A DNA stretch of 64,000 nucleotides. Source: Mariprofundus sp. NF (lineage in GTDB: Bacteria > Pseudomonadota > Zetaproteobacteria > Mariprofundales > Mariprofundaceae). The stretch is taken from NCBI RefSeq assembly GCF_013387455.1, contig NZ_VWNC01000004.1, positions 186,001 to 250,000 on the forward strand, written 5' to 3'. The translations under genes and the position numbers were made by a program. Shown piece after piece: positions 22,862 to 25,009 of this stretch; position 1 is the first letter of the stretch; each line of letters begins with the position of its first letter. The notes under the pieces are model-generated. The model searched no databases. It was not told the origin of the DNA and saw only the letters and a program-made list of their open reading frames with translations.

Positions 22862-23028
22862 GCCAGCAGCTTAACTTGCCCGATTCATCAGCGCTATGGG
22901 GTTGCTTATTCAGCCTTCGAATAAGAATCACTAATTATTACTTTTAAATTGAAGTAGACCACATTGTAAGAAAAATATTTGAAGCTGGTGATTAAAACCA
23001 AGAAAGGTTTCTGAGACATGCCTGCTAT

Positions 23029-23060
23029 AAAAAAATAGCCCCGTTAGGAACGGGGCTATT
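23029..23060 (-). terminator. Rho-independent terminator of the small-peptide operon
   Basis: On the minus strand a perfect 10-bp stem (CGGGGCTATT pairing with AATAGCCCCG, 7-base loop) is followed by seven T residues. It ends 22 bases after the stop of the second 31-codon gene, so those tiny genes are delimited by a strong dedicated terminator. Confidence 0.9.
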
Positions 23061-23081
23061 GCTCTTTGTTTATGCCATGCA

Positions 23082-23177
23082 TTAAAGGACGACCATGGCA
23101 TAAAGGGCTGCAGCTGTTGCGCTACTACCCAATACAACTGTTTTAATATCGGAAATCCATGATGATGAGTTTTTCAT
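23082..23177 (-). CDS. 31-residue small membrane peptide, distal copy
   Basis: A 31-codon gene with a full anti-Shine-Dalgarno match (AAGGAGGT) seven to eight bases before its ATG. The peptide begins MKNSSSWISDIK, a short polar head with Trp7 and Asp10, then runs into a hydrophobic Ala/Val/Leu-rich segment from residue 13 to the C-terminus that is long enough for one membrane helix (it ends ALYAMVVL). It differs from the upstream copy only at residue 19 (Ser here, Thr there). It is the last gene before a strong terminator. I do not recognise the family. A small membrane subunit, a signalling peptide or a type I toxin are all possible; strong translation signals and lack of a visible antisense gene argue mildly against a toxin. 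Confidence 0.75.
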   Translation of the reverse strand: MKNSSSWISDIKTVVLGSSATAAALYAMVVL

Positions 23178-23255
23178 TTTGTACCTCCTTAGGTAATGAT
23201 CTAATTGCTTCTGTGGTTCGCTTTATAGACAAAACATTCTTTGTTTATGCATGCA

Positions 23256-23351
23256 TTAAAGGACGACCATGGCATAAAGGGCTGCTGCTGTTGCGGTACT
23301 ACCCAATACAACCGTTTTAATATCGGAAATCCATGATGATGAGTTTTTCAT
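23256..23351 (-). CDS. 31-residue small membrane peptide, proximal copy
   Basis: The first of the two tandem 31-codon genes. RBS AAGGAGGT and spacing are identical to the other copy. Compared with the distal copy there are two silent changes (Thr13 ACG, Ala22 GCA) and one conservative change (Thr19). The N-terminal head carries one acidic and two basic residues, the remainder is a single hydrophobic helix with small residues (Gly17, Ser18, Ala20, Ala22-24) suited to helix packing. About 220 bases of AT-rich leader with dyads lie between it and the LysR-type gene upstream on the same strand. Function unknown. Confidence 0.75.
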   Translation of the reverse strand: MKNSSSWISDIKTVVLGSTATAAALYAMVVL

Positions 23352-23418
23352 TTTGTACCTCCTTAACCAATGATCTCACTTCTTCTGTGGCTCACTTTAC
23401 AGAAATATAATCATAAAT

Positions 23419-23489
23419 AGAAATAGATGTTTTTTATATGCACCATAGATGAAGATCTATTTCTAATGTGATGAGTTAAATTATATATT
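23419..23489 (-). promoter_or_regulatory. Candidate promoter and LysR-type operator of the small-peptide operon
   Basis: Nested dyads lie upstream of the proximal peptide gene: ATAGAT-4-ATCTAT (23445-23460), and AGAAATAGAT (23419-23428) facing ATCTATTTCT (23455-23464). The inner one fits the T-N11-A pattern of LysR-type sites. On the minus strand a TATAAT -10-like sequence (about 23478-23487) has no good -35, as expected for an activator-dependent promoter; the start would lie upstream of the dyads, so they could also act in the leader. Confidence 0.45.
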
Positions 23490-23573
23490 ATACAAATATC
23501 AGCAGAAATAGAGTGGGTGTTCTCTCAGGCTGACAACAATAACTTCATGTGCGGTTGGAAGAGTTGCCAGATT

Positions 23574-24491
23574 TTAAAATTTGCTATGCAATAGAAAGTT
23601 CAAAAAGGTGCGCGTAAGAAGTGAAAGCTTCTTTTCTTTCGAGTGAACGGCGTACCATTTACGATTCAGAGGGAAGCCTTCCACATCGAGTATAGCGAGA
23701 TGATTTCCAGCCAATTCCAGTCGTAAGTTAAAGTTCGATAAAACTGATATCCCTAGCTTTGCCATTACGGCCTGCTTAATGGCTTCACTACTATCCAATT
23801 CCATGTGTTGATTAACTATTAGATCATGTTCTGCAAACAGCTTCTCTACAGCCTGTCGAGTTCCGGATCCTCGTTCGCGCATGAGAAAGCGTTCCTGACT
23901 CAACTCCTTGAGAGAGATCTTCTTTTTTTTGCATAACGGATGATCTGGCGATGCAACGGCAACCAATTCGTGATCCAGCATGGGGTAAGCTTTAACGATA
24001 AGGTTGTTGGGCATCTGTCCGACAATCATTAAATCATCTTCGTTAGCTTTGAAGCGTTTTAATACTGTCTCTCGATTGGTTACCGTCAGTTGTGGTTTAA
24101 CGTCAGGATGCTGCCCAATGAAGGCAGCCAGAAGATGCGGAATAAAGTATTTTGCTGAGGTGATACATGCGATGCGCAATTCACCTTTGATCAACCCATT
24201 TTGCTCAGATATTGAATCACCCAACTCCACCATTTTTTCGAGAATGACTTGAGTGGTGGCATAAACTTCTTTACCTGCGAAGGTAGGCTGAACATGCCGT
24301 CCAACTTGCTCTATCAGAGGGGTTCCAAGTGATTCACTCAGTTTTTTGATTTGCATGGAGACTGTGGGTTGCGTTAAATGCAATGCTTCAGCTGCGCGGG
24401 TGTATCCGCCTAAACGAATCACGGCCTCAAAAATTTGTAATTGTCGCAACGTGACATGTCGGATGAGGTTCTCAGCTCTAGAGTATGGCAT
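23574..24491 (-). CDS. LysR-family regulator, CbbR-like
   Basis: A 305-residue LysR regulator. The N-terminal winged helix-turn-helix (VTLRQLQIFEAVIRLGGYTRAAEALHLTQPTVSMQIKKL) and the effector domain (GELRIACITSAKYFIPHLLAAF, VTNRETVLKRF, DDLMIVGQMP, RERGSGTRQAVEKLF) resemble CbbR/RbcR, which activate Calvin-cycle genes. No RuBisCO or other cbb gene occurs in the window. The next genes on its strand are the two 31-codon peptides. Its A+T content is higher than that of the housekeeping genes around it. CbbR-like assignment is by sequence resemblance; the target is unknown. Confidence 0.85.
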   Translation of the reverse strand: MPYSRAENLIRHVTLRQLQIFEAVIRLGGYTRAAEALHLTQPTVSMQIKKLSESLGTPLIEQVGRHVQPTFAGKEVYATTQVILEKMVELGDSISEQNGLIKGELRIACITSAKYFIPHLLAAFIGQHPDVKPQLTVTNRETVLKRFKANEDDLMIVGQMPNNLIVKAYPMLDHELVAVASPDHPLCKKKKISLKELSQERFLMRERGSGTRQAVEKLFAEHDLIVNQHMELDSSEAIKQAVMAKLGISVLSNFNLRLELAGNHLAILDVEGFPLNRKWYAVHSKEKKLSLLTRTFLNFLLHSKF

Positions 24492-24621
24492 TGCTAATAT
24501 ACTATGTGGAATATGGATGCCATCAATAATTAATTATATGTTCCTAATGCTTAAACTCTCTCTTCAGGAGGAAGATGTGGATCAGAAGTGTGGGGAGACT
24601 GGGAGACTGAGTGGAGACTGA

Positions 24622-24681
24622 GGGTCAGTTCTTTACTTTGTAGTTTCCAAAAGGGGCTGGTACAAACTAAAGAACTGACCC
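24622..24681. repeat. Inverted-repeat element (REP/MITE-like)
   Basis: Perfect 14-base arms GGGTCAGTTCTTTA (24622-24635) and TAAAGAACTGACCC (24668-24681); with one mismatch the similarity extends to about 21 bases. Three GGAGACTG-like direct repeats precede the left arm. Such palindromes are typical of mobile REP-like or non-autonomous elements. It sits about 33 bases after the stop of a 50-codon gene and could also end its transcript. Confidence 0.65.
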
Positions 24682-24714
24682 CGAGACTCTTAAAATCCTC
24701 ATTCCTTTTCCTAT

Positions 24715-24867
24715 TTAATACTTTTGTGTTCTTTTCAGGAAGAGGATATGCAGCATCAGCGCGAGGGCGAAGGAGAGCAGGGTGCCTAGAAACAGGTCAT
24801 CCACACTGAATCCGAGAAAGTGTAGAGCTACCCCTGTTGTGATTGCCAATACCCATGCGCTTAACAT
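24715..24867 (-). CDS. 50-residue putative two-helix membrane protein
   Basis: A short minus-strand gene with AAGGGG six bases before its ATG. The peptide has two hydrophobic segments, AWVLAITTGVALHFLGF (about residues 4-20) and LFLGTLLSFALALMLHILFL (about 26-45), joined by a short acidic SVDD turn, and ends KRTQKY. The frame continues upstream without an ATG (reading ERRFRQGLAQGVG), so a longer form from a non-standard start is possible. The arrangement vaguely recalls small AtpZ/AtpI-type or DUF membrane proteins, but I do not recognise a family. Confidence 0.5.
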   Translation of the reverse strand: MLSAWVLAITTGVALHFLGFSVDDLFLGTLLSFALALMLHILFLKRTQKY

Positions 24868-25009
24868 ACCCACCCCTTGCGCAAGCCCCTGCCGGAACCG
24901 GCGCTCTTCATTTGTTGTTACTGTTATAGACCATATTTGAGATAAATCAAATTGGAATGGTGTGATGCTTGGCGTTGGCCTGTCTGCGCAATTGACTTAG
25001 GGTCACGGC

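Follow-up and report, generated by a model that had tools for sequence, protein, structure and literature searches.

Twin genes for a predicted membrane micropeptide behind a CbbR-type operator in Mariprofundus sp. NF

Introduction

Two nearly identical open reading frames of 31 codons lie in tandem in a stretch of 64,000 nucleotides of Mariprofundus sp. NF DNA (referred to below as the window), and they raise the question of whether such short frames are genes at all and, if so, what controls them and what their products might do. A first-pass annotation, made from the sequence, had described the pair as small membrane proteins or, alternatively, as type I toxins. Its account of the reading frames was accurate, but it overlooked an operator upstream of them, the adjacent gene for an orphan CbbR and the insert in which they reside. 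For the genes of CO2 fixation, CbbR serves as the standard switch. Here, a RuBisCO-type regulator and its operator have apparently been reassigned to orphan membrane micropeptides.

Results

Both reading frames are located on the minus strand, the upstream copy at 23256..23351 (peptide MKNSSSWISDIKTVVLGSTATAAALYAMVVL) and the downstream copy at 23082..23177 (peptide MKNSSSWISDIKTVVLGSSATAAALYAMVVL), as the first-pass annotation had reported, and each runs from ATG to TAA with 31 codons plus the stop. The peptides are identical but for T19S (consensus MKNSSSWISDIKTVVLGS(T/S)ATAAALYAMVVL), and the three differences between the ORFs are those that had already been noticed, two of them silent (ACG/ACA at Thr13, GCA/GCT at Ala22) and the third ACC/AGC (Thr19Ser). 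The ribosome-binding sites of both are AAGGAGGT, with AAGGAGG six bases before either ATG, in agreement with the earlier remark on strong sites at equal spacing; the 16 nt comprising the Shine-Dalgarno (SD) sequence and the start (AAGGAGGTACAAAATG; 23349..23364 and 23175..23190, minus strand) are identical in the two copies. A common intrinsic terminator with a T run follows at 23029..23060 on the same strand (hairpin 23034-23060); its stem has 12 bp, or 10 bp without the last A-T pairs, the latter being the hairpin described originally.

The ORFs are part of a tandem duplication (23076..23403, minus strand) composed of two matched units of 154 nt, 23076-23229 and 23250-23403, which are 92% identical, include a -10-like region, SD and ORF, and are spaced 174 nt from start to start. 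The ORF is better conserved between the copies than its own 5' flank (3 differences in 96 nt vs 9 in 52 aligned positions; Fisher p = 0.004). Within the 64 kb, the twin pair are the only ATG ORFs with AAGGAGG 4-9 nt upstream, simulated windows (n=40) averaging 0.3 such ORFs of at least 30 aa, and a scan of the genomes of the class for the SD-start pattern returned the twin copies only. Codon usage, in so short an ORF, scored 0.64 in frame vs 0.54 and 0.61 in the shifted frames.

Residues 13-31 of the peptide form a 19-residue segment with a mean hydropathy of 1.81, a value that 1.1% of random ORFs with the local composition attain. This segment is preceded by a polar, lysine-bearing N-terminus, and the C-terminus, LYAMVVL, has no cationic end. 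AlphaFold2, applied to one copy (the sister of the upstream copy), predicted one helix spanning residues 4-30 with a pLDDT of 83. The helix is rich in Ala, Ser, Gly and Thr and contains overlapping small-xxx-small pairs (G17-T21, S18-A22, S19-A23 and A20-A24), a common helix-packing feature. Because of the rarity of the SD arrangement, the hydropathy, the predicted helix and the duplication, a chance origin can be dismissed: the tandem pair is not a chance pattern. The twin ORFs are very probably translated and, with the same high confidence, we place their products in the membrane, into which they would insert; the original view of them as small membrane proteins behind strong ribosome-binding sites thus agrees with the sequence.

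Searches with tblastn and profiles revealed no homologue of the peptide in 78 genomes of the class or in 398 genomes of the phylum, and none was found in the 24 genomes carrying the nearest CbbRs, in IMG/VR, phages or plasmids, or in GTDB r220, where the scan needs an exact short-stretch match and so reaches close relatives only. No family matched in Pfam, NCBIfam, PHROGs, PADLOC or PDB (by sequence and fold), just these two copies are present in the peptide's own genome, and none of the small SD-bearing ORFs that relatives have beside the aminotransferase gene or behind CbbR resembles the peptide. Weak matches, lying in unrelated longer frames or lacking a plausible start, were dismissed as chance. 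The first-pass annotation had proposed a tblastn search and held that a lack of homologues in related genomes would speak against the ORFs; by that rule, the result would count against them. Absence from the relatives is expected, because the peptides sit in an insert that the relatives do not have. Since there was no homologue in the collections searched, the evolutionary test of the frame is confined to the three copy-to-copy differences.

The insert occupies about 2.07 kb (22895..24960, ends approximate; GC 41% vs 52%) between divergently oriented aminotransferase and FAD oxidoreductase genes. In most relatives where both of these genes could be placed they are likewise divergent and separated by a gap of ~65-150 bp (for example in G007, G011, G009, G002, G001, G003, G017 and G018). 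Also in the insert, besides the twin ORFs, are the gene for a LysR regulator (23574-24491), a short element of inverted-repeat type and a small ORF for a two-helix protein. In the nearest congener, G015, homology to the window extends up to 22906 and begins again from 24545; the segment 22907..24544, which bears the terminator, the twin ORFs and the LysR gene, is missing, and neither the peptides nor this LysR were found in that genome. Two contigs of G015 (L151 1-160 and L066 1-160) terminate in a common sequence, GCGTTTTCACACACTCTGGGCCG, and one of these ends encodes what we take to be a transposase-like N-terminus (MKRFVIGESRSQSTLFPE), which suggests an insertion sequence at the homologous site. 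The inverted-repeat element, GGGTCAGTTCTTTA...TAAAGAACTGACCC (24622-24681), is REP or MITE-like, and the stretch that houses it, 24596-24729, is also missing from G015. The two-helix ORF (24715-24873, minus strand) has 52 aa from a provisional GTG start in an open frame of ~70 codons. Homologues occur at the same place in G015 (75%) and at another in G011 (54%); it has no Pfam or NCBIfam match, and its AtpI-type likeness was seen by eye only.

The LysR gene (23574..24491, minus strand) encodes a protein of 305 aa with the Pfam domains HTH_1 and LysR_substrate. Its top NCBIfam model is CbbR, with 231.9 bits, below the curated cut-off of 450; the name of that model seems to refer to a single lineage. 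The protein is 65-69% identical to marine gammaproteobacterial CbbRs, several of which adjoin cbbL or cbbM, and 58% and 53% identical to the CbbRs of the congeners G019 and G012, both encoded divergently from form I cbbL. In a tree with some weakly supported inner forks it falls inside the CbbR clade, among the gammaproteobacterial proteins. Judged from these comparisons, it is a CbbR. No RuBisCO operon lies beside its gene, and form I RuBisCO, which a regulator of this kind usually serves, is absent from this genome of 2.53 Mb. The sole RuBisCO, a 34% match to form I, is form II by our own reading of RuBisCO sequences, on which these assignments are based; it is encoded on another contig with its own CbbR.

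A CbbR-type operator of 40 bp, ATAGATCTTCATCTATGGTGCATATAAAAAACATCTATTT, is present at 23421..23460 on the minus strand, with a recognition dyad at 23445-23460 and an activation site at 23421-23437. The operator pattern, ATAG-N7-TCTAT-N7-ATAGAAA-N2-AT-N2-ATTT, was obtained by side-by-side reading of the cbbR-cbbL intergenic regions of G019, G012 and gammaproteobacterial loci, and it fits the known LysR T-N11-A / TNA-N7-TNA layout of CbbR sites (PMC2942843). The likeness between the window and the cbb loci had partly been spotted by eye before the test, which to that extent was not blind; the window site was left out when the scoring matrix was built. The pattern occurred once in the window, at this site, with one mismatch in 22 positions, and not at all in 100 shuffles. 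The matrix score of the operator was 32.7, compared with 7.6 for the next match in the window and 2.5 for the operator-like region upstream of the CbbR gene itself, which is eroded, with 7 mismatches.

The operator site is unique in the genome. Among 31 genomes, this one, G012 and G019 have exactly one site each, and in the latter two it precedes form I cbbL. Elsewhere, by our own reading of the downstream sequences, the operator also precedes form II cbbM, a gene for a class II aldolase that we take as cbbA, and one resembling cbbY. The cbbY-like gene, of HAD type, and the aldolase gene, for class II fructose-bisphosphate aldolase, were seen in L183 (G398) and L168 (G418). In the window, the operator stands upstream of the twin ORFs in the orientation that it has at cbbL, so that they occupy the place normally taken by RuBisCO, and the distance from operator to start codon is 109 nt before the first peptide vs ~95-170 nt at cbb genes. 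By-eye alignment of operator-anchored cbb promoters points to a putative -10 region (TAAAGT) at 23389..23401, minus strand. Both the -35 and the -10 of this promoter are weak by the sigma-70 consensus; this is usual for LysR-activated promoters, though no proof of one.

Since the operator is unique in the genome, form I RuBisCO is absent and the form II cbbM promoter, with 7 mismatches, is without the operator, the twin peptides are predicted to be the sole strong target of the orphan CbbR. That they are controlled by CbbR we regard as probable.

Discussion

The reading that we propose, to which we assign even chances, is that tandem CbbR-induced single-pass membrane peptides tune a membrane system in response to Calvin-cycle signals. 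The orphan CbbR, encoded directly upstream on the same strand, would bind the predicted operator at 23421-23460 and raise transcription once metabolic co-inducers signal Calvin-cycle demand. One CbbR-activated promoter and one terminator would serve a duplicated gene for a 31-residue single-pass inner-membrane peptide. The peptide would insert with its polar, lysine-bearing N-terminus inside and would most likely pack against a larger membrane protein, or against itself, thereby tuning that protein; a carbon-uptake or an electron-transport complex may serve as examples of a candidate partner. Such regulation of the peptides is well supported by the sequence, from which we infer both the binding of CbbR to the operator and the expression of the peptides. 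What we say of their biochemical role is likewise inferred, and the partner protein and the effect on it are guesses. That the role is tied to carbon fixation, as the regulation hints, is put forward tentatively.

Known systems offer partial parallels. The locus resembles the CbbR regulon (cbbL, cbbM, cbbA and cbbY promoters) in its two-part operator, in the range of spacing to the start codon and in having CbbR next door. It differs in that the operator, instead of separating divergent genes, follows cbbR in tandem orientation, form I RuBisCO is absent from the genome, and the targets are not Calvin-cycle enzymes but membrane micropeptides matching no Pfam or NCBIfam family. Control of very small proteins by a LysR regulator has a precedent in kind in VtlR of Brucella and Agrobacterium, because genes for such proteins are among its main targets; VtlR, however, is no CbbR, its targets are unrelated and it also controls an sRNA (PMC7486931). 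MgrB and DinQ are likewise tiny single-helix inner-membrane proteins, single-pass small regulators under a dedicated transcription factor, but no sequence relationship to the twin peptides was found.

A rather unlikely alternative, yet one that we consider stronger than the others discussed below, is that the segment is a relic or a young orphan, left over from a form I cbb island that arrived by horizontal transfer and then lost its RuBisCO genes, with the operator still driving a transcript and the duplicated ORF doing little or nothing. The low GC content of the insert, the lack of peptide homologues in the collections searched and the erosion of the operator upstream of CbbR (7 mismatches) would be consistent with such a history, as would the absence of the segment from G015, with transposase-like ends at its contig breaks. 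Decay is harder to reconcile with perfect SD sequences, an intact CbbR with both domains, an operator with 1 mismatch, a terminator, and an ORF that is conserved between the copies above its own flank. If CbbR drives the segment, its product could also be a regulatory RNA, to which the ORFs would be incidental or of secondary importance. Transcription of sRNAs under LysR control is known, for example from VtlR (PMC7486931), and the fold of the 396-nt region is somewhat better than that of its shuffles (z -2.3), although the individual 5' regions do not fold better than theirs. This explanation appears improbable to us, as both copies have an identical strong SD, an ATG and a 31-codon frame, and the divergence between them is concentrated in the 5' flank rather than in the ORF.

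The suggestion of a type I toxin pair, in which tandem tiny hydrophobic toxins would be held under an antisense or divergent sRNA as in ZorO/OrzO, was not supported. There is a similarity in that ZorO was discovered through tandem duplicated hydrophobic peptides of ~30 aa (PMC8309996, PMC3919570), the present peptide is a hydrophobic single helix of under 60 aa, and the SD of either copy, folded as a short isolated piece, lies within a 12-pair hairpin. However, this hairpin is no stronger than in shuffles (z about -1) and disappears when the 106-nt fragment of the upstream copy is folded to minimum energy. Promoter, duplex and Rfam predictions gave no antisense or divergent RNA antitoxin: no plus-strand promoter rises above the shuffled range, a divergent plus-strand RNA would be no more complementary than shuffled sequence, and no Rfam antitoxin exceeded the threshold. 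In addition, no type I toxin family matched, the promoter is predicted to be activator-driven, and the peptide has no cationic C-terminus, a feature of most type I toxins to which exceptions exist (PMC8309996). We therefore hold a toxin pair to be improbable as well. Least probable, to the point of being barely credible, is that the ORFs encode leader peptides and, together with an attenuator, control the aminotransferase gene downstream. That gene is on the same strand, the terminator lies between it and the ORFs, and there is a weak match to the Rfam Thr_leader (E 0.68), but its score of 21 is far below the gathering score of 55, the locus has two full copies encoding a membrane helix, and the aminotransferase gene of the relatives has no such leader.

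Returning to the CbbR-induced membrane peptides, a more far-reaching version would see in them a new class of CbbR-controlled micropeptides which couple Calvin-cycle demand to a membrane process, either inorganic-carbon uptake or electron supply, the RuBisCO regulator having been wholly reassigned after RuBisCO loss; this we consider speculative and on balance unlikely. Every other strong operator examined that had a recognisable downstream gene preceded one of Calvin-cycle type. If true, membrane micropeptides driven from the one strong site of a CbbR would be a case of a reassigned switch. Through them, control of carbon fixation by small proteins, a layer possibly overlooked by gene callers, would become directly open to testing. 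For mapping CbbR regulons, including their unannotated members, the operator pattern itself is a usable tool. The genome's own form II cbbM promoter (L030 2380-2549) is without this operator; a different motif, ATAATGTAAAATCAAAGGTTATGATG, is repeated ahead of cbbR in several congeners and is a possible site for the second CbbR.
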